Origin: Planctomycetia bacterium
GTDB lineage: Bacteria > Planctomycetota > UBA1135 > GCA-002686595
DNA length: 22,034 nt
Reading direction: 5' to 3'
Assembly (NCBI GenBank): GCA_005778045.1
Contig: SXKQ01000053.1
Location: 1-22,034 of the forward strand
A program made the translations under genes and the position numbers. Position 1 is the first letter of the stretch. Each line of letters opens with the position of its first letter. Under the pieces are notes generated by a model, which saw only the letters and a program-made list of their open reading frames with translations, ran no database searches and was not told the origin of the DNA. Positions 5,684-22,034 of this stretch are shown here, piece after piece.

Positions 5684-5730
5684 GGCGAGTGGGACCTGCG
5701 AGTAATGGGGGCCGGACGCGGGAGATGCAC

Positions 5731-6741
5731 CTAGCTGGGGTTCTCAGGCTGGGCACCGATCTGGCGCCGCAGCTCTACGTTGGCCTCGAAAATCTTCGAC
5801 ATCAAGGCCTTCTTGAGCTCGGCCTGCACGGCCGTCGGCGAGAGCCCCTGCACGTTCTTGTAGACCGAGGCGACGCCGCTGTCGCCGGTGCGCTGCGCGA
5901 GCACGCGCTGCAGCTCGGACTCCGTCATGCCGAGCGAATCCGACAGTTTGGCGATGCGTTGCTCGAGCAGCTCGATGCGCTCGGCCTGCTCGCGAGCCTC
6001 GCTCGGCAGCGCGCGACGCACCTCGTCCTGGACCTCGCGCAGGGCGCTGGTGACCACCTCGCGCTGAATGCGCGCGAGCAGGTCATCGTCCCCGGGACCG
6101 AGCCCGAAGAGTTCACGAATTCGATCTCCGAGGGCTCCGAGCGCCGCGTCTCCGCCCGAACCGGCGGGCAGCGGGGCAGACACGCGCGAGGTGTCCTGCG
6201 CGCGCTTGCGCTCGAAAAACTCGTACAGGTCGCTGTGCACGTAGCGGTTGCCACCGCCGTCGCGTGCCACGCGCAGGCCGGCCTCGGCCACTTCGAGCAG
6301 CGTGCCGAAGGCGAGTTCGCCCTTGCGCGAGTTGTGGGCGCCACCGATCGAGACCGTCACGCGGGTCGTGCGGCCGTCGCAGTCGAAGCGCAGGTTGCGC
6401 ACGGCCTCGAGCACGCGGCGGGCAACCACCTCTGCACCGGTCGATGGGGTGTGCGGGACGAGCACGACAATCTTGTCGTCTACGAGGTAGCCGAGCGAGT
6501 CCGAGGCTCGCGTCGAGGTGCGCAGCACGCCGGCCACGCCGCGCTGGATCTCCTCCTTGACCTCGGCGCCGTAGAGGTCCTGCAGCTGGGCGAGCCGATC
6601 GACCCCGATCACGAGCAGCACCAGCGGGTAGCGATAGCGCTGCGCACGGTCGAACTCGACCCGCATCAGGTGCTGGATCTGAGCCGATGTGAAGAGGTCC
6701 TTCAGCGAACCGCCGAAGCTGCCGCCGATCTGGAAGCTCAT
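5731..6741 (-). CDS. Degenerate GGDEF-domain protein with C-terminal coiled coil
   Basis: This 336-residue cytoplasmic protein has a GGDEF-fold domain at about residues 25-170. It shows the opening LMRVEFDRAQRYRYPLVLLVIGVDRL, the closing VTVSIGGA (128-135) and the LLEVAEAGLRVARDGGGNR helix-turn (148-166) typical of diguanylate cyclases. At the signature position, however, the sequence is GYLVDDKIVVLVP (84-96), so the GG(D/E)EF active-site loop is lost and cyclase activity is unlikely. Binding of a nucleotide or of a protein partner remains possible. Residues about 205-330 are charged and heptad-rich, predicted as helical coiled coil. I chose the ATG at 6741 because upstream in-frame sequence to 6912 is Pro/Arg-rich with no family similarity. 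No strong Shine-Dalgarno is seen. The MamK-like gene follows after 47 bp. Confidence 0.78.
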   Translation of the reverse strand: MSFQIGGSFGGSLKDLFTSAQIQHLMRVEFDRAQRYRYPLVLLVIGVDRLAQLQDLYGAEVKEEIQRGVAGVLRTSTRASDSLGYLVDDKIVVLVPHTPSTGAEVVARRVLEAVRNLRFDCDGRTTRVTVSIGGAHNSRKGELAFGTLLEVAEAGLRVARDGGGNRYVHSDLYEFFERKRAQDTSRVSAPLPAGSGGDAALGALGDRIRELFGLGPGDDDLLARIQREVVTSALREVQDEVRRALPSEAREQAERIELLEQRIAKLSDSLGMTESELQRVLAQRTGDSGVASVYKNVQGLSPTAVQAELKKALMSKIFEANVELRRQIGAQPENPS

Positions 6742-6912
6742 GGGGCTGCAGGCTTTCTGTGTCGGAGGAAAAGCGGCGTCGAGGGTCGCGGACCCGGCGG
6801 GGGAAGGGTAGCGGTGTCCAGGTGCGAAGTCATGCCCCGCCATGCACGCGGCAGCCGCTGAAGATCGGAACCTAGGGGACGAATTCTTGAGGGTTCCGCA
6901 GCGCAAGCGCAC
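6742..6912. other. Intergenic region upstream of the GGDEF-like gene
   Basis: This 171-bp gap separates the stop of the HDOD gene from the chosen start of the GGDEF-like gene. It is long for this compact window, so a promoter for the GGDEF-actin pair may lie here. I see no convincing -35/-10 pair, hairpin or RNA gene. An in-frame minus-strand extension of the GGDEF-like frame is open through it but looks non-coding. Confidence 0.35.
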
Positions 6913-7758
6913 TCAACCGAGGGCTTCGACATCGGCGCCCCGGACCCGCTCCGCCAGCCCGGAAAAAACTTCCGGAGCGATGCCGAGGCAGCGCTCGGCC
7001 ACCTTGGCGAGGCGCAGCACGGCCGAGTCGAATGTCTCGCTCCCGGCGCGATACGCGAGCTGGTCGGCGATCGCGACGACGCCCACATGCGGATGCTCGT
7101 GGATCGCATGGGTCGGCCCGTGATGGAACTCGATCGCCTGAGCGACCTTCTCCGGCAGCTGCCATTGGGCGGCGAGCAGGGCGCCGACCTCGACATGGGA
7201 GAAGCCGAACACGCGCCGTTCGGCGTCGTGCAGCTGGGAGCCTGTGCGGCGCGCGATGCGAATGCATTCGACGTACTCGTCCGTGAGGGCGTCGAGGATC
7301 ACGACCTTGCCCACGTCGTGCAGCAGTCCGCAGGCGTACAGATCGTCCGGGGCGAGCTCCGAGAGCTGGCGCGCGGCGGCGCCGATCGACTGCGCGAGCT
7401 GGGCCGTCAGGACGAGGTGTCGCCACAGCTCATCGAGGTCAAAGTCCGGAATGTCGCGCAGGTGCTCGTAGCGGCGCACGATCGAGCACTGCATCGTCAC
7501 GTTGCGCAGCGCACGCGCGCCGATCACCGTCACGGCGCGCTCGGCACTCGTCACGGGCTCGCGCAGGCCGTAGAAGGGCGAGTTCGCGAGTCGGAGGACG
7601 CGGGCGGTGATCGCCGGGTCCTCGGCCGCGATGCGCCCCATCTGCGCCGCGCCGACCGAGGTGTCCTCGATCGCGGCGTTGATGCGCAGCACCACCTCGG
7701 GCAGCGACGGGAGCGAGATCCGGTCGCCGAAGGTCTCGAGCAGTGCACGCCTCTCCAT
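6913..7758 (-). CDS. HDOD-domain signalling protein
   Basis: This cytoplasmic protein of 281 residues is nearly filled by an HDOD domain (PF08668). The LPSLPEVVLRI entry lies near residue 17, IAAEDPAITARVLRLANSPFYG at 43-64 is the family hallmark, and RAVTVIGARALRNVTM follows. The HD-like core is GLLHDVGKVVI (144-154), with FSHVEVGALLAAQWQLPEKV and FHHGP further on. HDOD proteins lack nucleotide hydrolysis in most cases and act as adaptors in regulatory or chemosensory circuits; this one keeps a His-Asp pair, so metal binding is not excluded. No receiver or output domain is attached. The ATG at 7758 is preferred to an adjacent GTG at 7761. Its order before a degenerate GGDEF and an actin gene suggests a shared regulatory task, though a 171-bp gap separates it from them. 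Confidence 0.88.
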   Translation of the reverse strand: MERRALLETFGDRISLPSLPEVVLRINAAIEDTSVGAAQMGRIAAEDPAITARVLRLANSPFYGLREPVTSAERAVTVIGARALRNVTMQCSIVRRYEHLRDIPDFDLDELWRHLVLTAQLAQSIGAAARQLSELAPDDLYACGLLHDVGKVVILDALTDEYVECIRIARRTGSQLHDAERRVFGFSHVEVGALLAAQWQLPEKVAQAIEFHHGPTHAIHEHPHVGVVAIADQLAYRAGSETFDSAVLRLAKVAERCLGIAPEVFSGLAERVRGADVEALG

Positions 7759-7793
7759 CACGAAGGGCGTATCGGTCCGCTCCCCTGTGGCGC

Positions 7794-7856: not shown

Positions 7857-9212
7857 TCACGGACGACGCAGCCACTTCCACAACTCGGCCGGCGTCGCGG
7901 ACTTGCCGGTGAGCAGGATGCCGACGCGGAAGATGCGCGCGGCAGCCCACACCATGCCGAGCACGCCCCCGAAGCCGACCAGCGAAGTGAGCACGATCTC
8001 CCAGCCGGGCACGGACTCGACCGAGGCCACGCGCAGCACCATCGCGAACGGGGTCATGGGCGGGATGTAGGAGATCACGCGCGCGAAGGTGCTGTCGGGA
8101 TTCTCCGTAACGAAGAACCACGTGAAGAGCGGCAACGTGAACACGATCGTCACGGGCCCGAGCAGCGTCTGGGCGTCCCGCAGCTCGCTGACGGCGGCAC
8201 CGATCGCCGCCATGGTCGCGGCCACCATCAGGAACGCCATCAGGAAGTAGATCCCAAGGTAGACGAGCTTGTCCGGCGGCACGAGGTGCGCGTAGCCGAG
8301 ACTCGAGGCCGCGCTCAGGCCCACGCTTGAGTACATCCCGAGCATCAGCGCCCCCACCGCGCACTGGCCGATCACCTTGCCGGCGAGCAGCTCGAGCGGG
8401 CTGACCGCCGAGAGCAGCACCTCGATCACGCGATTCGACTTTTCCTCGATCGTCGAGGTCAGTAGGTAGTTGCCGGTCACCCAAACGCTGCTCCACAGCA
8501 GCAGCATGAACGCGAGCGGGACGAACACCTTCGCGAGCTGGTTCTCCTGCACGTCGACGCCATCGCCGCGCAGCGTGGTCGAGACGGACACCGGCGGTGC
8601 GAGCACGGCGCGCGCGTGGGCAACGTCGAGACCGACGGTCGCGGCGCGCGCCGAGACCACCGCGCGACCGAGCGCGCCCTGCAGGTCGTCGACTTGCTGG
8701 CGCGTGAGTCCTTCGCGCAGGAACAGCTCGAAGCGGTTGGTGTCCTCGGCCGCCGAGAGCACCGAGCTTTCGTAGCGCACGCAGGCGAGCAGCTCCCCCG
8801 CCCGCACGCGGCGGCGGAAGCTCTCGACCGCGGCCGGATCGGAGCTGGTCTCGACGCCCACGAGCGGCGCCGGCGCCTCGAACATGCTGCGCGCCTGCCT
8901 CTCGAGCATCTCGCGCATCGGCTCGGGCAGCACGCCCTGCAGCCGGCGCTGCATCTCCGCCAGACGCCGATTGCGCTCGCGCACCAGTCGATCGCCGTCG
9001 AACTCCACGACGACAGCTGCCGCGAGACGCCCATCGACGTCGACCACGGCCAGCGCGCCCTCGAGCGGCTTGGGCGAAGGCTGCAGGAGGAACGGCAGCG
9101 CCAGCGCGAGTACCCAGAACACGACCGGCAGGATGATCGCGGCCAGCAGGAACGCCTTGGTGAGCACGGTCGTGCGGAACTCCCGCACGGCGATCTCAGT
9201 CACCCTTGCCAT
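7857..9212 (-). CDS. ABC-2 type permease, NatB-like exporter subunit
   Basis: This 451-residue membrane subunit of an ABC-2 exporter has one N-terminal membrane helix (about 20-42, KAFLLAAIILPVVFWVLAL). A large extracytoplasmic domain follows (about 45-230, rich in Arg and Glu), then five to six helices from about 235 to 445. The cytoplasmic coupling segment STIEEKSNRVIEVLLSAVSPLELLAGKVIGQ is the strongest mark of the NatB/YhaP-type ABC-2 family (PF12698). Such systems export sodium, drugs or envelope components; the substrate is not deducible. The ATG at 9212 lies inside the ATPase gene (17-bp overlap) and has an AAGGAG seven bases upstream, which decides this start over longer frames. It works with the ATPase encoded immediately upstream. 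Confidence 0.87.
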   Translation of the reverse strand: MARVTEIAVREFRTTVLTKAFLLAAIILPVVFWVLALALPFLLQPSPKPLEGALAVVDVDGRLAAAVVVEFDGDRLVRERNRRLAEMQRRLQGVLPEPMREMLERQARSMFEAPAPLVGVETSSDPAAVESFRRRVRAGELLACVRYESSVLSAAEDTNRFELFLREGLTRQQVDDLQGALGRAVVSARAATVGLDVAHARAVLAPPVSVSTTLRGDGVDVQENQLAKVFVPLAFMLLLWSSVWVTGNYLLTSTIEEKSNRVIEVLLSAVSPLELLAGKVIGQCAVGALMLGMYSSVGLSAASSLGYAHLVPPDKLVYLGIYFLMAFLMVAATMAAIGAAVSELRDAQTLLGPVTIVFTLPLFTWFFVTENPDSTFARVISYIPPMTPFAMVLRVASVESVPGWEIVLTSLVGFGGVLGMVWAAARIFRVGILLTGKSATPAELWKWLRRP

Positions 9213-10167
9213 GCTCGAGCTCCTTGCGCGCATCCTCCGCGGCGCTCTCCCCTTCGGCGGATCGGACGACACGCACGAACACGTCCTCGAGGCTGACGCG
9301 CTCGAGTTCGATGCGGCGGGCGGGACCGCGGCGCAACAGCGTGTCGAACAGCTCCTGTGGCCGTGCCCCCTCGCCCAGCGCGAGCGAATAGCCGCGGCCG
9401 TCGCGCGCGCGGTGCACGGAATGCACGCCCGGGAGCCTCGCGAGCTCGGGCTCGAGCGCAGCTCCCGCATCGAGGGGCTCGTAGGCCAGCGTGCGCGGGT
9501 CGAAGCGCGCGTGGATCTCGGGCAAGGTCGCGTCGAGTTGCTTGCGGCCACGGTGAATCAGCACCAGCCGATCACAGATGCGCTCGGCCTGCTGCATCTG
9601 GTGCGTGCACAGGAGGATCGTGCGCCCCTCGCGGTGCAGCTCGCTCACGAGACAGTCGAGCACCACGGCATTGACCGGGTCGAGGCCCGAGAACGGCTCG
9701 TCGAGGATGAGGAGCTCCGGCTCATGCACCACCGCGGCGATGAACTGCACCTTCTGCTGCATGCCCTTGGAGAGCTCCTGGCAGCGACGGTGCTCGACGC
9801 CCCCGAGCTCGATCCGCTCCAGCCAGCCGCGCACGCGCGCCGCAAGCCCAGCGCGCGGAACGCCCTTCAGGCGCGCGATGAAGGCGAGGTACTCGCCCAC
9901 CCGCATGGTGCGATACAGCCCGCGCTCCTCCGGCAGGTATCCGATGCGCTCCTTGGCGGCGAGCGCGCTCCCGCCGAGCACCTCGACCGTGCCCCGGTCC
10001 GGGTAAAGAATCGAGAGCACCATGCGGATCGTGGTGCTCTTGCCGGCGCCGTTGGGGCCCAACACGCCGCACAGCGAGCCGCGCGCGATCTCGAGGTCGA
10101 GACCGGCGACGGCGAGGCGGTCACCAAAGCGCTTCTCGGCACCGCGAATGGAGATGGCAGCCGTCAT
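9196..10167 (-). CDS. ABC transporter ATPase, NatA-like
   Basis: This 323-residue nucleotide-binding subunit has all ATPase motifs intact. Walker A GPNGAGKST is at 37-45, the Q-loop region near YLPEERGLY (77-85), the signature ELSKGMQQKV (131-140), Walker B LLILDEP (152-158), the D-loop SGLD and the H-loop His189 (CTHQ). The YLPEERGLY and LSKGMQQK forms and the extra C-terminal domain of about 110 residues (mixed beta, ending SLEDVFVRVV) are typical of NatA/YhaQ-like exporters. It powers the ABC-2 permease encoded directly downstream. The ATG at 10167 is preferred over a TTG at 10203. The gene heads a minus-strand operon diverging from the SGNH-flippase operon. Confidence 0.92.
   Translation of the reverse strand: MTAAISIRGAEKRFGDRLAVAGLDLEIARGSLCGVLGPNGAGKSTTIRMVLSILYPDRGTVEVLGGSALAAKERIGYLPEERGLYRTMRVGEYLAFIARLKGVPRAGLAARVRGWLERIELGGVEHRRCQELSKGMQQKVQFIAAVVHEPELLILDEPFSGLDPVNAVVLDCLVSELHREGRTILLCTHQMQQAERICDRLVLIHRGRKQLDATLPEIHARFDPRTLAYEPLDAGAALEPELARLPGVHSVHRARDGRGYSLALGEGARPQELFDTLLRRGPARRIELERVSLEDVFVRVVRSAEGESAAEDARKELEHGKGD
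9220..9225 (-). promoter_or_regulatory. Shine-Dalgarno AAGGAG for the ABC permease gene
   Basis: AAGGAG on the minus strand, seven bases before the ATG at 9212, lies within the last codons of the ATPase gene. It fixes the permease start and shows that the two genes are translated from one message. Confidence 0.7.
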
Positions 10168-10288
10168 CGCGCCGTGCAGTTCCGCAAACAAGACATGGGG
10201 CAAGGATGTTGGCGAGAGCGAGGCGTCTTTCCAAGAGGTGCCACGCTGGAACTCGCCCGCGGCAGGTGCGAAGGTGCGCGGGTCTCAG
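10168..10288. promoter_or_regulatory. Divergent intergenic region, probable promoters
   Basis: These 121 bp separate the starts of two operons running in opposite directions (ABC exporter leftward, SGNH-flippase rightward), so promoters for both should lie here. I see no clear sigma-70 boxes, palindrome or attenuator. A GAAGG about 15 bases before the ATG at 10289 is a weak, rather distant Shine-Dalgarno candidate. Confidence 0.4.
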
Positions 10289-11066: not shown

Positions 11067-12590
11067 ATGATCCGCAGCATCGGCTCGAACTGGGCGCTCA
11101 ACGCGCTGCAGGTGCTCGTGCTCATGGTGCTCACGCCGTTCGCCCTGCGCACCCTGGGCGCGGAGCAAAACGGCGTGTGGGTCACGGTGGTGTCGCTGAC
11201 GGGCCTGCTGCGACTGCTCGTGCTCGGCGTGCCGATGGCCTCGGTGAAGTCGATCGCGGAAGCGCGCGGGCGCGCGGACCTCGCGGGAGTCAATCGCGCC
11301 ATTTCGACCTGCCTCGCGATCACGCTCGCCATGGGCCTCCTCGCGCTCGCACTCGGCTGGGCGCAACTCGAGGCCTTCGAGCATGGCTATCTCGACGGAG
11401 CCTTGGGAGCGGGCCTCTCGCCCGCGCAGCGCACGGCCGCGCAAGTGGGGTTCGTGCTCGCGGCGACGCAGGTTGCTGCCGCGTTCGTCCTGCGGCTGCC
11501 CTACGGAGTCCTCGATGCGCACGAGGACTTCACGACCCGCAACGGGATCATGGCACTCGAGCTCCTCGCGCGCGCCGGCCTGACGGTGGCCCTGCTGCCC
11601 CGCGCGCCGGATCTCACCACGCTGGCCGGGATTCTCGTGGCGACGATGGTGCTCGAGTTCGCGCTCGCGTGGCTCGCGATCCGCAGCCGTCATGCGGGCG
11701 TGCGCTTCTCGCTCGCGAGCTTCGACCGATCGCTCGTGCGTGGCATCCTGTCGTTCAGCGTGTTCGCGATGCTCCTCAACGTCGGGACGCTGCTCGCCTT
11801 CCGCTGCGACGCTCTCGTGATCGGTCGCTGGCTCGACGCGGCCGCCACGACGCAGTTCGATCTCGGATCCAAGTTCTTCGAGCCGTTGGCGGGCTTCGTG
11901 ATCGGTATCGGCGCCGTCGTGATGCCGGCGGCCACGCGCCTCAAGGCGAGCGGCAAGATCGAAGACCTGCGGCCAGTGCTGCTGCGCTGGACGCGCATCT
12001 CGTTCCTCCTGGTGCTCGCCATCGGCACGTTTCTGCTGCTCCTCGGACCTGAGTTCCTCGCGCTGTGGGTCGGTCCCGAGATCGCGGGCCCCGCGGGCTC
12101 TGTGTTGCGCGTGCTGATGGTGTCGTTCCTCGTGTACCTGCCCGTCCGCGGCGTCTCGCTGCCGATCCTGATGGGACTCGGACAGCCCGTGAAGCCGACC
12201 GTCGCGCTGCTCGCCATGGGCGTGATCAACATCGCGCTCTCGATCGCGCTCGTCGGGCGGCTGGGGCTCGTGGGCGTGGCGCTCGGCACGGCGCTGCCGA
12301 ACATCGTCTTCTCGCTGTTCGTTGCGATGCTCGCCTGCCGAGAGCTCGCGGTGCCGGCGCGCGAGTTCCTGAGTTATGCCTTCGGGAGGCCCTTGCTGGG
12401 CGCCCTGCCCGCCCTCGCGCTCGTGCTGGCCTACAAGCGACTCGTGGCGATCGACACGTGGGCGGAGCTCATAGCCGGAGGCGTGCTCTCGACCGCAGCG
12501 CTCGGCGTCGTGACGGTGTTCTTCGTGCTGCGCGACGACCCGTGGATCGCGCTCCCAGGACCGCTGGCCCGCTTCGGAGCTCGCCCGTGA
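11067..12590 (+). CDS. Wzx-type polysaccharide/lipid-linked oligosaccharide flippase
   Basis: This polytopic membrane protein of 507 residues has about 14 hydrophobic segments and belongs to the MOP/MVF-like flippase superfamily (polysaccharide synthesis type, PF01943/PF13440). It opens MIRSIGSNWALNALQVLVLMVLTPFALRTLG, the usual first helix with a conserved asparagine and a helix-ending LG. It goes on with NGVWVTVVSLTGLLRLLVLG and has a second-half FDLGSKFFEPLAGFVIGIGAVVMPA segment. Wzx proteins move undecaprenyl-linked glycan units across the inner membrane. No glycosyltransferase or polymerase genes are in view, so the glycan is unknown. The stop overlaps the next gene's GTG (GTGA), and SGNH-type genes lie on both sides. 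Confidence 0.88.
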   Translation: MIRSIGSNWALNALQVLVLMVLTPFALRTLGAEQNGVWVTVVSLTGLLRLLVLGVPMASVKSIAEARGRADLAGVNRAISTCLAITLAMGLLALALGWAQLEAFEHGYLDGALGAGLSPAQRTAAQVGFVLAATQVAAAFVLRLPYGVLDAHEDFTTRNGIMALELLARAGLTVALLPRAPDLTTLAGILVATMVLEFALAWLAIRSRHAGVRFSLASFDRSLVRGILSFSVFAMLLNVGTLLAFRCDALVIGRWLDAAATTQFDLGSKFFEPLAGFVIGIGAVVMPAATRLKASGKIEDLRPVLLRWTRISFLLVLAIGTFLLLLGPEFLALWVGPEIAGPAGSVLRVLMVSFLVYLPVRGVSLPILMGLGQPVKPTVALLAMGVINIALSIALVGRLGLVGVALGTALPNIVFSLFVAMLACRELAVPAREFLSYAFGRPLLGALPALALVLAYKRLVAIDTWAELIAGGVLSTAALGVVTVFFVLRDDPWIALPGPLARFGARP

Positions 12591-13717
12591 ACCTCCCCGG
12601 TCTCCTCGGTGCGGCGGGAGCCATGCTCGCTGCTTCGGAGCTCGCCGCGCGAGCGATCCTGCGCGCCGGCGGTGCCTACTACGTATGGCGTCCTCACGAC
12701 CGCACGCACATGCAGCCCGATCGTGCGGCCCTGCCGTCCCTCGAGCCACTGGTGCATTTCGAGATCAATGCGGAGGGCGAACGCGGTGACGAGCTGCCCT
12801 CCGACCGGCGCGGGCTCTACCGCGTGCTGGTGGCCGGCGGCAGCGCGGCCGAGGGCTACATGCTCGACCAGCCGAGCTCGTGGCCAGGCGTGCTGCAGTC
12901 GCTGCTGCGCGAGCCAAAGGCCCGCGAGCGACTCGGCGCGCGTCACGTGCACGTGGGCAACATCGCGCGCTCACTCGTGCCGTGCGAGACGATCCTGACG
13001 ATGCTCGAGCGTGTTCTGCCACGCTACGACAGGCTCGATCTCGTGCTGCTGATGGTCGGAGCCTCCGATGCGGTCACGTGGCTGGAGCAGCGCTGCCCCG
13101 TGCCGCTGCCGCAAGCGCGCTTCGGGCTCGACTATATGTTCGACGAGCACTGCGAGCGTCGCTTCGGCTGGAAGCCGACGGAGCTGGCGCTGCGCGCGCT
13201 CGGCTCGCGAATCATGCGCCGCGTGCGCGCCCCGCAGGTTCGCGAGCGCACAGGCTCGAAGCTCGTCGAGCTGCGCGAACGCCGGCACAATGCCACGCGC
13301 TGGATCGACTCGGCCCCGGACCCCGAGCCGATGCTCGCGCGCTTCGAGCACAACCTCGCTGCGATGATCGAGCGCTGCCGCGCCAAGGGCGCGCGCGTGA
13401 TCGTGGTACGCCAGCCCTGGTTCGACAAGGAGCTCAGCGACGCGGAAGAGGCCGTGATGTGGAACTTCTGCATCGGACGGCCCTACGTCGAGACGACGAC
13501 CGAGTACTACACGCACCCCCTCGTGCGCACGCTGCTCACGCGCCTCGACGAGCGCGCCGCGGCCACCGCCCAGCGGCTCGGAGTGGAGGAAGTCGACCTC
13601 CGTCCTGCCGTCGCGCCGGATCTCGTCCACTACTACGACTACCTGCACTTCACGCCACAGGGCGCGCGCACCGTGGGCGAGCAGGTGGCCCGCGTCGTGC
13701 TCGCTCGCGCTCGCTGA
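12587..13717 (+). CDS. SGNH/GDSL-like hydrolase, translationally coupled to the flippase
   Basis: This 376-residue protein has a short hydrophobic start (LLGAAGAMLAASELAARAIL) and SGNH blocks with wider spacing than the upstream SGNH protein. They are VAGGSAAEGY with Ser86 (82-91), VGNIAR with Asn125, MVGASDAVTW with Asp161 (157-165) and HYYDYLHFTPQGA with Asp351 and His354 (348-360). The inserted region at 165-310 is Arg/Glu-rich and may form a lid or a partner-binding helix. This layout resembles the large uncharacterised SGNH proteins common next to exopolysaccharide genes. The GTG start overlaps the flippase stop by four bases, so it is expressed with it. Likely role: deacylation or acyl transfer on the exported glycan. 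The end is 15 bp from the convergent beta-helix gene. Confidence 0.8.
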   Translation: MNLPGLLGAAGAMLAASELAARAILRAGGAYYVWRPHDRTHMQPDRAALPSLEPLVHFEINAEGERGDELPSDRRGLYRVLVAGGSAAEGYMLDQPSSWPGVLQSLLREPKARERLGARHVHVGNIARSLVPCETILTMLERVLPRYDRLDLVLLMVGASDAVTWLEQRCPVPLPQARFGLDYMFDEHCERRFGWKPTELALRALGSRIMRRVRAPQVRERTGSKLVELRERRHNATRWIDSAPDPEPMLARFEHNLAAMIERCRAKGARVIVVRQPWFDKELSDAEEAVMWNFCIGRPYVETTTEYYTHPLVRTLLTRLDERAAATAQRLGVEEVDLRPAVAPDLVHYYDYLHFTPQGARTVGEQVARVVLARAR

Positions 13718-13732: not shown

Positions 13733-15865
13733 TCAATCGACTCGCTCGAGTCGCAGCGCGAGAACGGCCCAGCCGTCGAGCTCGAAGTGCTCGACCTCGA
13801 ACGCGTGCTCACCCGGCTCGTCGAACGAGACCTCCGCGGAGTCGACCGTCGGGCCGTGGTGAGTCCAGTTCTCGATCACCGTACGTCCATCCACACGGAC
13901 CCGCACGCCGTCGTCGGAGGTCGACTCGACGCGCCAGCGTCCCGCAGGCAGGTGGAGTCGCGCCGAGGCCAAGGTGCCGAAGCGGTCGGAGCCCAGCGCA
14001 GCGGCGCGCACCTCCGTAGGCACGCCAGGGAGCTCGGAAGGTCCGGCGGAGCCGAAGGCAAGGTCGAGCGCCGACATCTGCACACGCACGCCCGCTTCGA
14101 CCTCGGACCTCCAGCGCGCGGTATCCACGCGCGGATCCGTGAGATAACGACCCAAGCTGACATCCCAGCGCGCGCCCAGAAGGAGCCCGCGCCCAGCGAG
14201 CGCGCTGCTCGGGAGGCGCACGCGCAGCTCGTAGTCAAGCGCCCGGCCCGCCACGCGCGGCGCGATCACGTACTGGGCCGGATCGACGCCCGCGTCGAGC
14301 GCGAGTCGCACGTCCGGTCCCGCGTCCACGCCGATCGCCACCTCGTTGCCCAGCAGGCGCCATACATGGCTCCCGTCGCGATCGGGCAGGCGCTGAAGCA
14401 GCGGCGCGACCCAGTCGTAGGGTCCCCACTCGGTCATCACGATGTACTCGCGTCCGGCGAGGTGCGCGCGGGCCCCCACGGCCTTGCGTGCGCCCGGCAG
14501 TGCGACCAGTGCATCCTCGTCCAGCGGCAGGTGCGCGACCGTCGGCAACTGCTCGGTCAACTGCGAGGCTGCGTCGATCTTCCAGCGACTGCGCTCCAGA
14601 CCTGCCTGCCGCGGGTCGACCGCGATGCGTTCGTTGGGACCGCGCAGCTCGAGCTGCACGGCGCTGTCTTGGAAGCGATTGAGACGCACGGAGTGACCCG
14701 CGCTCGCCGTGGGATTGAGCCTTGCCCACGACTTCGCGAGCAGGTCGCTGTCTTCGTCCCACCACAGCTCAAGGTCGCGAGCATTGGTCGAGAAGTCGTT
14801 GCCCGCGATGGACCAGTCGCTGCCGTGCTCGACCGCGATGGCGGCGATCGTGTTTCCGAGGAGCTCATTGCCGCGCGCCTGAGTCCGGCTCGAGTAGCCG
14901 CCCCAGATCCCGTAGTTGCAGCGCGCGAGAACATTGCGGGCGAAGACGTTGTCGAACGAGAAGGTCAGCTCGATCCCGATCGCGGCCGCATCGGAAAAAT
15001 CATTGCCGTAGAGCAGATTGCGGTTGCATCCGAGGCCCGCAAGCCCACTCGCGTCGAGCGCCTCGTTGCCGGCGAATCCGAAGAAGCCATCTCCGCCGTG
15101 CGTCGCCGAGTTGAATGCGAACACGTTGTCGCTGCTCTGCTCGAAGACGAGGATGCCCGCGGAATCCTGGCCGCGGGAGTAGACGCCATGGCTGTAGCCG
15201 CGGATGCAGAAATCGAAGCTGTTGCGCGCCACCGTGTTGCCGGAGCTCCGGTACAGCGCGAGCCCCCACCCCGACAGGAAGCTCATGTCATTGTCGTAGA
15301 TGCGCGAGCCTTCGACGCGCCGCAGGCAGATGCCGTTCTGCGTGCTGCGCACGCGGTTCTGGCGCAGCGTGACGTCGCGCGAGTCCTCGACGTAGAGCCC
15401 GGCCCCGTAGTTACGAAGCCACTCGTTGGCATCGTTCTGGTGAGGCCGCAGCCAATCCTGCGTGTCCTCCGCCCGCTGAGTCGAGCGGAGCCGTTGCGCG
15501 AAGCCACGGGAAAGGTCGCAGCCCTCGACCACGAGACCGTCGGCGCCGCTGGCCCAGATCGCACAGCGCAGGCCCGAGGCCTGCAGCCCGCGCACCGTGA
15601 CGCGCTTGCCCGTGACGCGCACGCCGATTCCGCGCAGCGAGTCCTGAGACGCGCCAGCAGGCGCTCCGAGCAGCGCCGTGCGCGAGAACGTCACCGTGAG
15701 GTCGTCGCCGCGGATGTGCACGATGCCGTCCTGCTCGTCATCCTCGATGACGAGCCCTCTGGGATCGAGCAGGCACGACTCCCGGATCTCGATGTCATCT
15801 CGATCGACAGGCACCACACGCGGAGGCTGCTGTGCGAGAGCCAGCGCGAGAGCGAGAGCGAGCAT
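13733..15865 (-). CDS. Secreted right-handed beta-helix (NosD-like) protein with PA14-like C-terminus
   Basis: This 710-residue exported protein has a minimal leader (ALALALALA at 3-11) and an N-terminal cap (residues about 20-60: DIEIRESC, then GIVHIRGDDLTVTF). A long run of parallel beta-helix turns follows at about 85-410. The repeated rungs read N-x-(V/L)-(A/L)-x-N or G-(I/L)-x-(V/L) (SGNTVARNSF, SSDNVFAFNS, NRNLLYGNDF, SFDNVFARNVL, SDWSIAGNDF), as in NosD and pectate-lyase-like CASH proteins. A middle domain contains the segment TEWGPYDWVAP (478-488). Residues about 625-708 (ASARLHLPAGRWRVESTSDDGVRVRVDG and the following GEHAFEVEHF) look like a PA14 carbohydrate-binding-type domain. It may bind or process a surface glycan or assist the exporter of its operon. 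It starts four bases after the HD gene stop. Confidence 0.85.
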   Translation of the reverse strand: MLALALALALAQQPPRVVPVDRDDIEIRESCLLDPRGLVIEDDEQDGIVHIRGDDLTVTFSRTALLGAPAGASQDSLRGIGVRVTGKRVTVRGLQASGLRCAIWASGADGLVVEGCDLSRGFAQRLRSTQRAEDTQDWLRPHQNDANEWLRNYGAGLYVEDSRDVTLRQNRVRSTQNGICLRRVEGSRIYDNDMSFLSGWGLALYRSSGNTVARNSFDFCIRGYSHGVYSRGQDSAGILVFEQSSDNVFAFNSATHGGDGFFGFAGNEALDASGLAGLGCNRNLLYGNDFSDAAAIGIELTFSFDNVFARNVLARCNYGIWGGYSSRTQARGNELLGNTIAAIAVEHGSDWSIAGNDFSTNARDLELWWDEDSDLLAKSWARLNPTASAGHSVRLNRFQDSAVQLELRGPNERIAVDPRQAGLERSRWKIDAASQLTEQLPTVAHLPLDEDALVALPGARKAVGARAHLAGREYIVMTEWGPYDWVAPLLQRLPDRDGSHVWRLLGNEVAIGVDAGPDVRLALDAGVDPAQYVIAPRVAGRALDYELRVRLPSSALAGRGLLLGARWDVSLGRYLTDPRVDTARWRSEVEAGVRVQMSALDLAFGSAGPSELPGVPTEVRAAALGSDRFGTLASARLHLPAGRWRVESTSDDGVRVRVDGRTVIENWTHHGPTVDSAEVSFDEPGEHAFEVEHFELDGWAVLALRLERVD

Positions 15866-15869
15866 GGGC

Positions 15870-16445
15870 TCAGACCTTCGGCGCCGCCGCGCCGAGCCCA
15901 AGCTCGTCCGCGTGCGGCCGCAGGGCGAGGATCACGAACTCGACGTGCGTCGCGAGCTCGACGCCCAGCAGCTCCACGCCGCGCGTGATCTCGTCGCGCT
16001 CGACCTTGGCCGCGAAGCCCTTGTCCCTGAGCCGCTTCAGAACGCTCTTCGACTCGAGGCCGGCAACCCCGTCCGGCCGCACGCGCACGCAGGCGCCGAC
16101 GAAGCCCGTGAGCTCGTCGCACGCGAGCAGGGTCTTGTCCAGCATCGATTCGTGGGGCACGCCCCACTTCGTGTAGTGCGCGGAGATCGCGTGCGCGATC
16201 GGTTCCTCGCCGCGCTCGCGCAGCCAGGCAACGATGCGTCGCGGGTGCTCCTCCGGCCATGTCTCATAGTCGGCGTCGTGGAGCAGGCCCGCGAGGCCGA
16301 AGCTCTCGACATCCTCAGGACCGCGGCCGTAGCGAAGTGCGGCAGCCCGCATCACGACCTCGACGGCGCGAGCATGTCTCCGCAGCGCCTCTCCCGGCGT
16401 CCAATCCAGCAGCAGAGCCCAGCCCTCGTCACGCGTCAGGCTCAC
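15870..16445 (-). CDS. HD-domain phosphohydrolase
   Basis: This compact cytoplasmic protein of 191 residues has an HD metal-dependent hydrolase domain. His24 (LRRHARAVEVVM), the GLLHDADYETWPEEHP core with His56/Asp57 and His67, His90 in ISAHYTKWG, and Asp110 (ACDELTGFVGA) provide the metal ligands. The order GLLHD-x-DYE-x-x-PEEH, DELTGF, VRP, ESKSVLKR and KGFAAKVERDEI matches a widespread small HDIG-like family of unassigned substrate. The GTG start overlaps the preceding gene's stop (GTGA), and an upstream longer frame is antisense-like filler. It is the only clearly cytoplasmic enzyme among secreted and membrane products in this operon; it may be a passenger or may act on a nucleotide signal. 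Confidence 0.88.
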   Translation of the reverse strand: MSLTRDEGWALLLDWTPGEALRRHARAVEVVMRAAALRYGRGPEDVESFGLAGLLHDADYETWPEEHPRRIVAWLRERGEEPIAHAISAHYTKWGVPHESMLDKTLLACDELTGFVGACVRVRPDGVAGLESKSVLKRLRDKGFAAKVERDEITRGVELLGVELATHVEFVILALRPHADELGLGAAAPKV

Positions 16446-18085
16446 TTCGACACCTGCGCGAACGAGAGCACCTCGAACCAGCCCGAACGCGGCTCGCCCT
16501 TGCGCTTGTAGGCGATGACGAGTTCCTCCCCCGCTAGGGACCCGAGTTGGGCGCACTCCATGCTCACCACCTCGACCGTCTCGGGATCGCGCAGCACGAC
16601 CGTACGATCGGCCGCGCGACCGCCCGTGAGGAGCGCCGCACGCCGCTGCACGAGATCGCCGAGCGCGTCGACCATGCGGTCGATGTCCCAGACCGCGTTC
16701 TTCTCGTCGAACAGGAGCTCGCGCAGCTTGCGCTCGCCGCTGCGATCCGCCGCAGTCTCGCCCAAGCGCGAGAGCCAGGCCTCGACACCACGCTTGTCCT
16801 GCGTGAGCAGTAGCACGTCCTCGCGCCCATCGCCGTCGACATCCCCGCGCGCGCTGGTTCGAAACTGCTTCTCGACTCCCGTGAAGCGCTCGAGCACCTT
16901 CTCGGGGTTCTTCGCGAGGCCGATGATCCCCGGCAGGCGCACCGCGAGCTCGTTCGAGAGGCTCGGGCTGCCCTCGAAGCGCCCTTCGCCGATGTTCGAG
17001 TAGGCCAGCACGCGCATCTCGATATCCCACTCGCTGAACAGGCCGCGCAGGATCGTCGCCAGCGTGGGGATCTGCACCTTCACGAGGAGCAGGTCCGGCA
17101 AGTCGTCGGCGTCGAGCGGGTGCACGAGCAGCGCCGTGATGTCCTCGGCCGTCTTGAGGATCGCGGACGGCTGCGTGAACTGCGGGCCTTCCTTGGTGCC
17201 GCGGAAGACCCACACCTTGCGCCGGTGGCCGACCACGTAGTCCGGGATACGATCGCCGTCGAGGTCGCGGCTCGACCACGAGGCCTTGTCGCCGGCGGAG
17301 AGCGTCCCGCCGAGCGTGAAGCCCGAGGACTCCGTGGTGTCGCGGAAGATCGATAGATCGACCGCCACATCCGCCTCGAGCGGGAAGGACCCATCCTCGC
17401 GCTGCAGGTGGAACGCGCGGCGATTGCCCTGCTCCACGAGCAGGTCCGGACGGGCGTCGCCATTGACATCGCGCGTCGCCAAGCCGGGAATCGCGAACGA
17501 GCTCTCGAGCGCATCCGAGAGATACTCCGCGCCGTGGCTGCCCCAGCGCGCGACCTCGACCGAGATGGTCGCCATCTTGCGGAAGGCCGGGACGCGCTGC
17601 TCTGTCCCAAGCGACGCCAGCCACAGTTCCACGCCGTTCAGGGTCGGCACGACGATGTCGTCGAGGCCGTCCATGTTGATGTCCTGCGCGATCGGCGCGA
17701 GCGATGGAGACTCGAGTCGCAGCGCGAAGCGCGCGCGCGGGATCCAAGCCTGCGCCTCGGCCGAGATCTCCCCGCCCGCGAGCACCGCGTAGGCGCTCGT
17801 GCCCGAAGGAGACATGCTGACGAGATACGTCGTGCCGGCGTACGTGGCGAAAGCCAAGAGGCTGCGCTGCGGCGTTGGCAGGGTGAGCGAGCCGACCGGC
17901 TGCCCGCCCGCGTGGGGCAGCAGGGTACGCACGCGGCCGTCGCGACCAATCGCGACGAGCTCGCTCATCCCGTCGCCGTCTAGGTCGAGGACGCGGTGGC
18001 AAGCGAGCTCGAGGCCCGGCTCGAGCCCGATCGCCTGCGTCGGAGTGGCGGCCTGCAGGCACAGGGCAAGCAACAGCGCGCTCAT
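16442..18085 (-). CDS. Secreted FG-GAP/VCBS-repeat protein A
   Basis: The 547-residue product has a short leader (ALLLALCLQAATPTQA) and scattered calcium-loop/beta-propeller blades. Loops of the D-x-(D/N)-x-D-G type are seen at residues 34 (DLDGDGMSEL), 135 (DINMDGLDDIV), 206 (DVNGDARPDLL), 274 (DLDGDRIPDYV), about 325 (DADDLPDLLL) and 415 (DVDGDGREDVLLL). Five to seven such blades are usual for an FG-GAP seven-bladed propeller, so one domain fills most of the protein, with an alpha-rich insert at 340-410. Such proteins bind calcium and partners in the periplasm or on the surface; no enzyme motif is seen. Its ATG overlaps the stop of VCBS protein B (ATGA), and the HD gene follows with a GTGA overlap. 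Confidence 0.85.
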   Translation of the reverse strand: MSALLLALCLQAATPTQAIGLEPGLELACHRVLDLDGDGMSELVAIGRDGRVRTLLPHAGGQPVGSLTLPTPQRSLLAFATYAGTTYLVSMSPSGTSAYAVLAGGEISAEAQAWIPRARFALRLESPSLAPIAQDINMDGLDDIVVPTLNGVELWLASLGTEQRVPAFRKMATISVEVARWGSHGAEYLSDALESSFAIPGLATRDVNGDARPDLLVEQGNRRAFHLQREDGSFPLEADVAVDLSIFRDTTESSGFTLGGTLSAGDKASWSSRDLDGDRIPDYVVGHRRKVWVFRGTKEGPQFTQPSAILKTAEDITALLVHPLDADDLPDLLLVKVQIPTLATILRGLFSEWDIEMRVLAYSNIGEGRFEGSPSLSNELAVRLPGIIGLAKNPEKVLERFTGVEKQFRTSARGDVDGDGREDVLLLTQDKRGVEAWLSRLGETAADRSGERKLRELLFDEKNAVWDIDRMVDALGDLVQRRAALLTGGRAADRTVVLRDPETVEVVSMECAQLGSLAGEELVIAYKRKGEPRSGWFEVLSFAQVSK

Positions 18086-19662
18086 CCGAACCTCACGAGC
18101 AGCACTTGCGCGGGCTCGATCACGAGCACGCTGGGCTTCGACTGTCCCCCCCGCGGTGGCACGAGTTCCACGGCCGCGTCCTCGTGGATCGCGGTCTCCC
18201 ACAGCGGCTTGTCGAACAGGGTCCACGTCGACTTGTCGGCGCTGCCCTGCGAGCGCAGGAACATCACGCGCAGCTTCTCGGGCTCATCGCGCGCGATCAG
18301 CTCCGAGATTCCGTCGCCCGTGAGGTCGCCGCAGAACTCCGCCGTGAGCTGGAAGCGCTCGAGCGGGATCGTGCGCTTCCACGTCACATCCGGCTGGCGC
18401 GAGAGCACGCCGCGCCGGTTGCGATAGACGTACAGCTCCGCCTCGATGGACTTCGACGAGGCGCTGCGCAGCTGGTCGATCAGGTCCGGTCGCACCGCGC
18501 GCAGCACGAGTTCGGGGTAACGATCGCCGTCGAGGTCCACGAAGCGCGGTCCCGAGACGAAGCCGGCAAACACCAGCAGGTTGGAGGGTCGACCGTCCTC
18601 GCCGAACGGCGCCGGGCCGTCCTTCGCGCCGGCCTGCGTGAAAAACAGTCCCTGCGTACGCACGTCCTCGGAGCGCTTGTCCCCGGCGAAGATCACGCAA
18701 TCCGCGCGCCGGTCGAGGTCGAGGTCCACCGCGTGCGAGCTGTACGACGTGTCGAGCCGGCGCGCGGCATCGACATCGACCGGCAGTTCGAGGGAATGGG
18801 CGAGCTCCGCCGCGAACGCGCCGCGGTCCTGTGCGAACACGTGCAGGTGGTGCGAAGTCTGCACGATCAGGTCGAGGTCGCCATCGGCGTCCCAGTCCGC
18901 GAGATGCGGCGAGCTCACGCTCTCGCTGGCCTGCGCGAGGATCGCCGGACGCATGCCGATGGTGTCCTCCTCGCCTTCGGTCAGTTCGAGTGTGTAGCTC
19001 GGGCGCTGGCGTCGTCCCCGAACGGCGGGACCGTCGCGACGCGTCGCCGAGACCCATACCCCGCCGGCGTCCGCCTCCTCGGGCACGCGCAGTCGACTCG
19101 CGAGACCAAACGCTCCCTGCGTGCGCGGCCGACGCTGCGCGCACAGCAGGAAGCCGCCGGGCTCGGGCAGGAGCAGGTCATCGAGGCCGTCGCCATCGAG
19201 GTCCATCACGCCGTCCTGCCACACGTGCACGGTCGACGGGTCGGGAACCTGCCACAGGAAATCGCACTCGACGAGGCGCTCGGCGCGCGCTTCTACGGCG
19301 AGCGGGGCCAACGCGAAGACTCCGCTGCCGTTGAAGAGCAGCAGCTCGGCGCCGTTGCCGACGAGCGTGTCCCCGGTCGCGATGGCGACCACGTCGGGGG
19401 TCAGGTCGACGACCTTCACCCGGGCGATCGCCCCCTGCGACTCGCGCCAGATCTCCACCCGCCGCCCCGCGCTCTTGCCGCGCGCGCAGCTCGCCACGGC
19501 AACCTCGGGCACCTTGTCGCCGTCGAAGTCGGCGAGCAGGGCGGCCACGGGCTTCCAATCGGCCTCCACGGCCAGCGTCGCGACGCGCGCGAACTCCGGC
19601 TGGGCCGCAGGCTTAGCGCCCGCCGCCTGAAGCGCGAGCAGTACCATGCAGACGGCACTCAT
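18082..19662 (-). CDS. Secreted FG-GAP/VCBS-repeat protein B
   Basis: This 526-residue protein is similar in build to its downstream neighbour. A short leader without basic residues (MSAVCMVLLALQAAGA) is followed by calcium-loop blades at 45 (DFDGDKVPEVAV), 154 (DLDGDGLDDLLLPEPGG), 256 (DWDADGDLDLIVQ), 313 (DLDLDRRADCVIF), 376 (DLDGDRYPELVLR) and 446 (DLTGDGISELIAR). Spacing is 50-110 residues, so blades carry long inserts. The two VCBS genes are probably an old tandem duplication, but direct similarity outside the loops is low by eye. Likely a periplasmic or surface propeller that binds calcium and protein or sugar partners. The ATG at 19662 overlaps the PDZ lipoprotein gene's stop (ATGA). 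Confidence 0.85.
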   Translation of the reverse strand: MSAVCMVLLALQAAGAKPAAQPEFARVATLAVEADWKPVAALLADFDGDKVPEVAVASCARGKSAGRRVEIWRESQGAIARVKVVDLTPDVVAIATGDTLVGNGAELLLFNGSGVFALAPLAVEARAERLVECDFLWQVPDPSTVHVWQDGVMDLDGDGLDDLLLPEPGGFLLCAQRRPRTQGAFGLASRLRVPEEADAGGVWVSATRRDGPAVRGRRQRPSYTLELTEGEEDTIGMRPAILAQASESVSSPHLADWDADGDLDLIVQTSHHLHVFAQDRGAFAAELAHSLELPVDVDAARRLDTSYSSHAVDLDLDRRADCVIFAGDKRSEDVRTQGLFFTQAGAKDGPAPFGEDGRPSNLLVFAGFVSGPRFVDLDGDRYPELVLRAVRPDLIDQLRSASSKSIEAELYVYRNRRGVLSRQPDVTWKRTIPLERFQLTAEFCGDLTGDGISELIARDEPEKLRVMFLRSQGSADKSTWTLFDKPLWETAIHEDAAVELVPPRGGQSKPSVLVIEPAQVLLVRFG

Positions 19663-20624
19663 GATTCGATCGTCTCCAGCCGGTCCGCATCCCCGCCGGC
19701 GAAGTGCAAGAACCACAACAGCGTGGCCTTCCAGGCGGCCGCGGTGCTCTCGTGCGAAAAGAGACCGAAGAGCAGCGAGAACGAGCTGCGTTCGCTCTGC
19801 CGCTCGTATTTAGCCAGCAGTGGAATCGAGAACCGCTTGAATTCCTGCTCGCGTCGCGAGAGTGGAGCCCGCACCGCGACGATCGCGCCTTCGCGCACGA
19901 GTTCCAGATCGAGCGTGGCCTTTTCGGGAGCATTGCGGATCGCGTCGACGAGGACTTGGGGATGCCCCACCTCGACCCCATCGACGGCACGCACGAGATC
20001 GCCGTAGCGAAGGCCGGCGGGACGCCACGGGCTCTCGCGCGTGAGCCCGACGACCACGGCACCACCGCCCGGACCGAGGGCGGCCGCGCGCGACTCGACT
20101 TCCGTCGCGGTACGCAGCACGAGTCCGACCCGACGCTCCTCGCGGAAGCGCTCGGCGGGCGTGCGATCGCTCGGATGCACGCGCGGAACCGTCACGACGC
20201 GGAAGATGCGCTCGGCACCGGCGCGGTCGACGACGAGCGCGATCGACGTAGCCGGCTCGCTCTCGAGCTCGATGCGACGCCACTCGCTCGGCCAGTGCAG
20301 CGCCATCGTCTGCGCGGCGCGGGCCTCGAGCACGAGGTCTCCGACCTCCAGCCCGGCTGCGTCCGCAGGCGAATTCTCCACCACGGCCGTGACGACGACG
20401 CCCTCGGGCTCGCCCACGAGCGCGTCGAGCGAGGTACGCGAGTCCCCCACCACGAGCCCGGTGAACGAGCCATTCGGGAGCGCGGCGCGCGCGGACTCGT
20501 CCTGCGGCTCCGCCATGAGCTCGAGCGGCTGCTCCATCCCGGCCAGCGGAGGCGAGGAGGCGGAAACATCCGTGGCCTTGCAGGCCGTAAGCACCGCGAT
20601 GAGCGAGAGCGTGAGGAGCTTCAT
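19659..20624 (-). CDS. Lipoprotein with two PDZ domains
   Basis: This 321-residue product has a lipoprotein signal (MKLLTLSLIAVLTAC, lipobox LTAC with Cys15). Two PDZ-like domains follow: one at about 55-145 (SPADAAGLEVGDLVLE at 85-100 is the substrate-groove segment) and one at about 165-255 (SPWRPAGLRYGDLVRAVDGVEV at 198-219). No protease triad is present, so it is a PDZ-only scaffold rather than a DegP or Tsp protease. The last 60 residues (RFSIPLLAKYERQSERSSFSLLFGLFSHES, then LLWFLHF) form a beta-strand-rich tail of a kind seen at the ends of envelope proteins. It is anchored to a membrane facing the periplasm. The ATG overlaps the ABC gene's stop; it probably couples the exporter to the secreted partners downstream. 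Confidence 0.83.
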   Translation of the reverse strand: MKLLTLSLIAVLTACKATDVSASSPPLAGMEQPLELMAEPQDESARAALPNGSFTGLVVGDSRTSLDALVGEPEGVVVTAVVENSPADAAGLEVGDLVLEARAAQTMALHWPSEWRRIELESEPATSIALVVDRAGAERIFRVVTVPRVHPSDRTPAERFREERRVGLVLRTATEVESRAAALGPGGGAVVVGLTRESPWRPAGLRYGDLVRAVDGVEVGHPQVLVDAIRNAPEKATLDLELVREGAIVAVRAPLSRREQEFKRFSIPLLAKYERQSERSSFSLLFGLFSHESTAAAWKATLLWFLHFAGGDADRLETIES

Positions 20625-22034
20625 GGGATAGGACGGCGCACGAGGAGGACGACCGACAGTGCGGCGCAGGTGAGCGCCCAGAGTACGGGTACTGCGACGT
20701 CCTGCGGCAAGAAGCCCGCAAACATTGCGCCGTGCTCGAACGTCGAGTTGCTGATGCCCTGGGCGCGATCGGCGAGGAAGTGCAGGAACGACGTGTCGCC
20801 GAGGGGACTCGGGAGGTAGGCCGAGAGCAGCCCGCCCTCGAGGCCCAGTCCTCGCAGGGCCCCGCGGACGAGATCGAGCGCGAACGCCAGCCCGATCGCG
20901 AGGCCGAGCGCGGCGGCTGCGGCGCGCGCGAGCGTGCCAGCGACGAGCCCCAGCGCGAGGTAGCCGCCGAGCGCGAAGAGCGGCACCAGCAGCGCGCGCT
21001 GGAGGTCCGGCTGCAGCTCGCTGGCCGCGACGAGGGGGAACTTCTGGCCGTTGGGAAGAATCTCGACGAGATCGCCGAAGCCGAAGAACGCGCCCGAGAG
21101 TCCCACGGCCGCGAGCAGGAGCAGCGCGTAGGAAGCGACCAGAGCCACGCACCCTGCCAACGCCTTGCCCAGCAGGACGTCGAATCGCGTCTGGGGCCGG
21201 AGCAAGACGTTGCGCAGCGTTCCGCGCGCCAGCTCGCCCGCCACCATCTGACTCGCCACGCCCGCGAGCGCGATCGCGAGCAGCGGCAGGCCCGCGCCGA
21301 GCGCACGCGCGGTCGTGCCGAAGCCGGTGACCGCCGTGGCACTCGCAAGCTCGCCCGCAGCCACACGCGCGGCCTCGGCGGCCGCGCGACCTCGCTCGAG
21401 CAGCACCCCTGCTGCGGCTGCCACCGCGGGCAACGCGAGCAGGATCGGAACGGCGGGGCGCGCGCACAGGCGCGAGAGCTCGTAGCGCAGCGTGCGCAGG
21501 ACCGGATGCGGCGCCGCGCGCCGCTCCGTCGGCGCGGAGACCTGCACCGGCGCGTCCTTGGCCTGCGTCGGCGCGAGGATCGTCTCGCCGCGCGCGTAGC
21601 GCAGGTAGATCTCCTCGAGCGAAGGCGGACGCGCGCCGAAGCGCACGAGCTCGAGACCGGCGCCGATGACGCGCCGCGCGATGTCGCCCGCGGGCTGGTC
21701 GCCGAGCTCGAGTTCGAGGCCACCCTGCGCGAGCGCGCGCGAGACGATGCCGCGCTCCGCGAGCAGCGCGCTGGCGCGAGCGTCGTCGCTCGTGGCGAGC
21801 TCGAAGCGTCCCTTGCCGGCCGCGAGCAACTGGCTCGTCTCGGCCTCGATCACGAGCTTGCCCTTGTGCATCACGCCGACGCGGTTGCATAGGTCCGCGA
21901 GCTCGTGCAGCTGGTGGCTCGAGATGAGGATGCTCGAGCCTTCTTCGCGCACGACCTGCCGCAGCATCTCGCGCATCTCCGCGATGCCCTGCGGGTCGAG
22001 GCCGTTGGGCGGCTCGTCGAGCAGCACGTAAGCG
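20621..22034 (-). CDS. ABC exporter with ATPase and ABC-2 permease fused (5' end outside window)
   Basis: The open frame runs off the right edge, so the start, Walker A and signature are not visible. The visible part begins just before Walker B (VLLDEPPNGLDP) and continues with the H-loop (ISSHQLHELADLCNRVGVM). It then passes through an ATPase C-terminal domain ending SLEEIYLRYARGE into a linker rich in Ala/Pro/Thr. It continues without a stop or usable internal start into an ABC-2 permease with about six membrane helices (RTLRYELSRLCARPAVPILLALP, then MVAGELARGTLRNVLLRPQTR, the coupling-helix segment). Both halves are therefore one polypeptide, whereas NosF/NosY and most ABC-2 systems use two. 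It probably works as a homodimeric exporter. It is upstream of and overlaps (ATGA) the PDZ lipoprotein gene. Confidence 0.88.
   Translation of the reverse strand, partial: AYVLLDEPPNGLDPQGIAEMREMLRQVVREEGSSILISSHQLHELADLCNRVGVMHKGKLVIEAETSQLLAAGKGRFELATSDDARASALLAERGIVSRALAQGGLELELGDQPAGDIARRVIGAGLELVRFGARPPSLEEIYLRYARGETILAPTQAKDAPVQVSAPTERRAAPHPVLRTLRYELSRLCARPAVPILLALPAVAAAAGVLLERGRAAAEAARVAAGELASATAVTGFGTTARALGAGLPLLAIALAGVASQMVAGELARGTLRNVLLRPQTRFDVLLGKALAGCVALVASYALLLLAAVGLSGAFFGFGDLVEILPNGQKFPLVAASELQPDLQRALLVPLFALGGYLALGLVAGTLARAAAAALGLAIGLAFALDLVRGALRGLGLEGGLLSAYLPSPLGDTSFLHFLADRAQGISNSTFEHGAMFAGFLPQDVAVPVLWALTCAALSVVLLVRRPIP

Follow-up and report, generated by a model that had tools for sequence, protein, structure and literature searches.

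A conserved gene core for an ABC-2 exporter, a PDZ lipoprotein and two FG-GAP propellers in Planctomycetota, and a possible envelope machine

Gene content of the locus

The window, by which we mean the whole 22,034-nt stretch of planctomycete DNA analysed here, carries six genes in a row on its minus strand. The first encodes a fused ABC exporter (20621-22033, partial), whose 5' end is cut at the window edge; the 470 residues that remain comprise the rest of the ATPase (Walker B and H-loop), a DrrA-type C-terminal domain and an ABC-2 permease. It is followed by a lipoprotein with two PDZ domains and a lipobox-type Cys, without a protease domain (19659-20624), and by two FG-GAP/VCBS propellers with N-terminal signal-like segments, propeller 1 (18082-19662) containing DxDxDG calcium-type loops and propeller 2 (16442-18085) invariant DxDxDG-type aspartates. 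The last two genes encode an HD-domain hydrolase with a GTG start (15870-16445; Pfam HD), and a right-handed beta-helix protein with a PA14 domain at its C-terminus (13733-15865; Pfam Beta_helix, NosD and PA14). Start/stop overlaps of 4 nt join ABC to PDZ (20621-20624), PDZ to propeller 1 (19659-19662), propeller 1 to propeller 2 (18082-18085) and propeller 2 to HD (16442-16445), while a gap of 4 nt (15866-15869) lies between HD and the ATG of the beta-helix gene. All six frames and all five junctions fall exactly where the initial annotation had placed them, and its domain calls agree with the Pfam and NCBIfam assignments of the six proteins. The missing N-terminus of the exporter was supplied by the closest relative (L001); the further operon members that were to be sought upstream were not seen in that locus, in which the genes upstream of ABC run the opposite way.

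We noted other recurrent genes around the core. HDOD, GGDEF and MreB/actin-like genes lie in a row in the window (4640-7761, minus strand), and this run is also found, whole or in part, downstream of the core in L007, L008, L010, L014 and L038. A second ABC exporter of the NatA/NatB type (7857-10203, minus strand; ABC_tran and ABC2_membrane_3), separate from the core, has NatA and NatB homologues likewise downstream of the core in L007. On the plus strand, 11088-13717 contains a gene resembling polysaccharide flippases (MatE/MurJ) and another for a GDSL/SGNH hydrolase, and similar genes adjoin the core in L002, L003, L004, L015 and L041.

Protein families of the core

Fused exporters related to that of the window are mostly 596-650 residues long, with the ATPase N-terminal and the ABC-2 permease C-terminal. 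Pfam assigned ABC2_membrane_2 and DrrA1-3_C to the window exporter (PF12679 scoring 48.4 bits against a cut-off of 27.2), and Walker A, signature, Walker B and H-loop motifs were conserved in the alignment, Walker A and the signature, which lie outside the window, being read from relatives. These ATPase motifs and the permease domain together identify an ABC-2 exporter. A structural model of the L004 orthologue (mean pLDDT 90) resembles one half of a type V exporter with short periplasmic loops, which are about as conserved as the transmembrane helices (mean major-residue frequency 0.55-0.63 and 0.48-0.65, respectively). The ATPase matched NosF at E 2e-72 with 34-36% identity, other ATPases matching about as well structurally, and NosY was the better of two PDB matches to the permease, albeit a marginal one (E 0.017 over ~130 positions).

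For the PDZ lipoprotein, a lipobox-type Cys at position 15 was found in at least 90% of 43 aligned sequences, the window included. The lipobox lacks Asp at +2 among the rows listed, pointing to a putative outer-membrane location under a lipoprotein sorting rule that comes from proteobacteria. Pfam searches of the 321-residue window protein at E up to 1 returned PDZ families only. An identity as an HtrA/DegP protease was rejected for this protein, as no trypsin-like protease domain appeared in that search.

Both propellers contained FG-GAP_3 repeats above cut-off (PF13517; 66.9 and 78 bits against 26.9), and the model of propeller 2 (mean pLDDT 84) adopts a propeller fold with inserted helices that matches ITFG2 and integrins, which places the pair in the FG-GAP propeller family. 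A TcB subunit of Tc toxins was considered for propeller 1 and dismissed (TcdB_toxin_midN, 12.7 bits against a cut-off of 24.8), the PDB matches being explained by the shared propeller fold. Over 54 tandem pairs, the first and the second propellers resolved into two clades with 0 of 108 sequences misplaced (support 0.98); by this phylogeny the pair appears to be ancient, with both members retained.

Conservation of a four-gene core

Protein searches returned at least 120 matches per list, with named entries among the matches listed belonging to Planctomycetota or Phycisphaerae, and the same contigs recurring among the PDZ, propeller 2 and beta-helix matches listed. A species genome collection scanned with 43 PDZ sequences yielded 40 loci, of which 39 bear planctomycete titles and the remaining one is called simply "bacterium", and a sample of genomes from the phylum yielded 20 more; after removal of four duplicates and inclusion of the window, 57 distinct loci were compared. 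These were selected by PDZ, and therefore only the neighbours of PDZ are informative on conservation.

The conserved unit comprises four genes, the ABC exporter, the PDZ lipoprotein and propellers 1 and 2, rather than six. Among the 57 loci, propeller 1 follows PDZ in all 54 that were long enough to judge, propeller 2 comes next in all 49 evaluable, and an ABC match ends at most 200 nt upstream of PDZ in 41 of 51; the core is contiguous in 35 of the 44 loci that could be evaluated on both sides. The other ten of the 51 show ABC gaps of 228-752 nt (three loci, the 752-nt gap being that of L054, where a permease match nonetheless adjoins PDZ) or of 1.3-2.7 kb (L012, L033 and L036), or no ABC near PDZ (L039, L050, L056 and L058). 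The upstream stretch is shorter than 1.5 kb in L050 and L056, and the genome of L058 has a permease ~12 kb upstream. At the usual place of ABC, L056 (78-1382) and L058 (8431-9741) carry a divergent adaptor-like coiled-coil gene with no Pfam match.

Geometry permitting a 4-nt overlap, scored as an in-frame start codon at the 4-nt position (an available start not being proof of its use), was found at the ABC/PDZ junction in 36/50 loci, at PDZ/propeller 1 in 47/54 and at propeller 1/propeller 2 in 43/49. Since these first three junctions keep it in most of 49-54 divergent loci, the overlaps go beyond chance.

Distribution and evolution in Planctomycetota

We identified a wider family with permease and propeller profiles on genomes that had no PDZ match. 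Profiles for the permease (A8, E up to 1e-12) and the propeller (A9, E up to 1e-20), run on 294 Planctomycetota genomes, detected the permease in 118, the propeller in 107 and both in 104, where 43 were expected (hypergeometric 1.9e-59, kinship not corrected), counts that are somewhat inflated by the building of the profiles partly from co-located examples among these genomes. The permease occurs without a propeller match in 14 genomes, and the reverse in 3. For the 104 genomes with both, the matches listed for the two genes lie within 6 kb on one contig in 57, 11-13 kb apart in 2 and on different contigs in 35, with no listed propeller places in 10. LptD showed no association with the module.

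PDZ is widespread in this module and not universal. Over the 294 genomes we found 24 strong and 8 divergent PDZ matches, all 32 in genomes with permease and propeller. A single strong PDZ copy was found in each of 14 genomes. By the initial cut-off, 30 of the 57 close permease/propeller pairs were without a PDZ match. A recheck in which 20 further loci were fetched recovered PDZ in 13 of these 30, the gene lying between those for the permease and propeller 1 (94-176 bits over most of the model), and PDZ is thus carried with the module in at least 45 of 294 genomes. Another 13 of the 30 show no PDZ, namely L081-L086 (G017, G025, G032, G046, G057 and G190) and L110-L116 (G028, G096, G128, G161, G201, G256 and G265). 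In G034, G048, G121 and G170, which were not fetched, only 24-60 nt separate the permease and propeller matches, leaving no room for PDZ. Large Ser/Thr protein kinase genes follow the PDZ-less module in L084 (2144-5311) and L086 (9206-12436).

When permease and propeller sequences of 73 loci were combined into one tree, rooted by midpoint only, the 13 PDZ-less loci are set apart with the single exception of L114 (support 0.99), and the 40 loci with a fused exporter split off cleanly (support 1.0). Divergent loci encode ATPase and permease separately; next to the permease of L082 and L085 we saw no match to the ATPase. Both splits were clean in an earlier 53-locus tree. The topology fits an order in which PDZ would have been gained or lost once or a few times, followed by fusion of the exporter and then by the arrival of HD and beta-helix. 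Several PDZ-positive genomes, for example G144, G140, G198, G211 and G136, show a second permease/propeller set elsewhere, so that ancient paralogy could account for the pattern instead of gain in simple steps. Within one stretch of L051 (1402-12903), an ABC pair encoded by separate genes accompanies a fused ABC exporter with its PDZ and two propellers as well as a further two propeller genes; two types of the module may be adjacent there.

A possible envelope machine and its alternatives

The contiguity of the core, its overlap geometry, the co-occurrence across genomes, the two propeller clades and the ATPase motifs lead us to lean towards a planctomycete envelope machine formed by an ABC-2 exporter and two FG-GAP propellers, to which many lineages add the PDZ lipoprotein. 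The exporter would dimerise in the inner membrane and hydrolyse ATP, its short conserved periplasmic loops would dock the calcium-type propellers, and these would form a bridge to an outer-membrane PDZ lipoprotein with a possible affinity for exposed peptide ends. Such a complex of exporter, propellers and lipoprotein might act together in the export or assembly of an envelope component, be it lipid, glycan or protein; the flanking genes examined indicate no pathway. An envelope system built on an ABC-2 exporter with secreted partners, distinct from nos, had been proposed for this locus and is retained here, reduced from the six genes then grouped as one system. We likewise found no description of such a system in the open-licence literature searched.

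The larger original proposal, that all six genes form one obligate system, draws on the recurrence of the six-gene order in the window's relatives and on an HD/beta-helix overlap of 4 nt that is possible in 8 of the 10 loci with HD (propeller 2/HD, 5/10). These ten, all relatives of the window, are the only ones of 44 with HD and beta-helix beside the core; the pair is missing there in the other 34, and in L008 and L038 it is set off by ~1.3-1.5 kb. A search of 41 genomes, all chosen as PDZ-positive, detected HD in 27; it lies beside the core in 8 (G001 through a continuation, L073, and G002 as a partial match) and apart from it, on other contigs or far away, in 19. Around those 19 detached genes, some with short flanks, the only match to another member was a weak ABC match in L063. 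The initial annotation would have given up its system if related genomes carried the genes unlinked: the ABC-PDZ-propeller-propeller run holds together (35/44), and the HD part comes apart. We therefore regard an obligate six-gene system as very improbable, and HD and beta-helix as later neighbours of the core, possibly co-expressed only. In L002 (4905-5111) the HD gene is a short partial match within an otherwise similar operon.

Two other readings keep the core together. The module could be a NosDFYL relative retuned to the maturation of a metal centre or cofactor in another periplasmic metalloenzyme, with the propellers or PDZ holding the client. NosF is among the closest solved ATPases, NosY is the best, marginal permease match, the window's clade adds a beta-helix protein with NosD repeats, and the lipoprotein partner parallels NosL, which is described as a Cu-binding lipoprotein (PMC7660919). 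However, neither the PDZ nor the propeller alignments contain an invariant Cys or His, the flanking genes that we examined included no recognisable metal enzyme, and full NosZ is present in only 2 of 36 genomes by one NosZ model, which also gave sub-threshold matches in 6 of 14 control genomes. One of these two copies shares a contig with the core at a distance of 1.46 Mb (G167), and the other is on a different contig (G002); of two contig-end fragments, one shares the core's contig ~65 kb away (G014, the nearest) and one is on another contig (G137), none of them near the core. This agrees with the earlier judgement that the locus is not a nos cluster, nosZ being neither among the six genes nor near the core in the genomes searched, and we consider metal maturation distinctly unlikely. 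We judge it somewhat less unlikely that no joint complex exists, the propellers being calcium-dependent proteins secreted to the surface or matrix and the exporter a common lipid or drug pump that shares their transcript. FG-GAP propellers serve as generic scaffolds and match many distant proteins, some genomes have permease and propellers on separate contigs, and some operons have no lipoprotein, yet the position-specific orthology of both propellers, the conserved overlaps and the co-occurrence of permease and propeller in 104/294 genomes all speak against separate functions.

Returning to the envelope machine, envelope biogenesis in Planctomycetota is poorly understood, and the machine may serve the unusual envelope of these bacteria, some genomes of which seem to carry a second set of it. 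A close to even, and therefore tentative, proposal is that it constitutes an undescribed ATP-driven trans-envelope machine in about one third of the sampled Planctomycetota, in which an ABC-2 motor would act with a periplasmic pair of ancient, non-interchangeable FG-GAP propellers, PDZ-linked in at least 45 of 294 genomes. With its paralogues specific to their positions and its overlap geometry conserved, a module that occurs in about one third of the sampled phylum offers a defined target of four genes and one motor. If the proposal is true, FG-GAP propellers would join the known partners of ABC-2 exporters, and the module would be a test case for ABC-2 motors acting on periplasmic protein pairs.

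Comparison with known systems

The PDZ domains of the lipoprotein are shared with HtrA/DegP, RseP and GspC, from which it differs in its lipobox and in having no protease or secretion domain that we could find. Like MacB-type tripartite ABC systems, the module would combine an exporter with periplasmic and outer-membrane partners, but its permease has no large periplasmic domain, and no MacA or TolC is found among the core genes. MacAB-TolC efflux was accordingly rejected as an identity, neither the adaptor nor a TolC-like channel being present there.

With the type V, or ABC-2, exporters (ABCG, ABCA, DrrAB and NatAB) the exporter shares its modelled fold, short periplasmic loops and ATPase motifs, and it is set apart from them by a fixed operon in which two propellers, and in many lineages also a PDZ lipoprotein, are encoded. 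The layout resembles that of the NosDFYL system of nitrous oxide reductase maturation, with NosFY as the ABC part, NosD as the periplasmic partner and NosL as the lipoprotein, an analogy that does not imply a role in copper handling. Common to both are an ABC2_membrane_2 permease (a Pfam family of which we take NosY to be a member), a possibly NosF-like ATPase with a C-terminal domain, a secreted periplasmic partner and a lipoprotein partner. The parallel with NosF-NosY-NosD drawn in the initial annotation thus holds for layout and not for the identity of NosD, which was rejected for the beta-helix protein at 46.2 bits against the TIGR04247 cut-off of 300; loci that lack this protein still pair the exporter with the propellers. 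In the planctomycete module this protein is confined to the window's relatives, no NosZ adjoins the core, the ATPase and permease are fused in the window and its clade, and a pair of FG-GAP propellers and a lipoprotein with two PDZ domains act as the putative partners.
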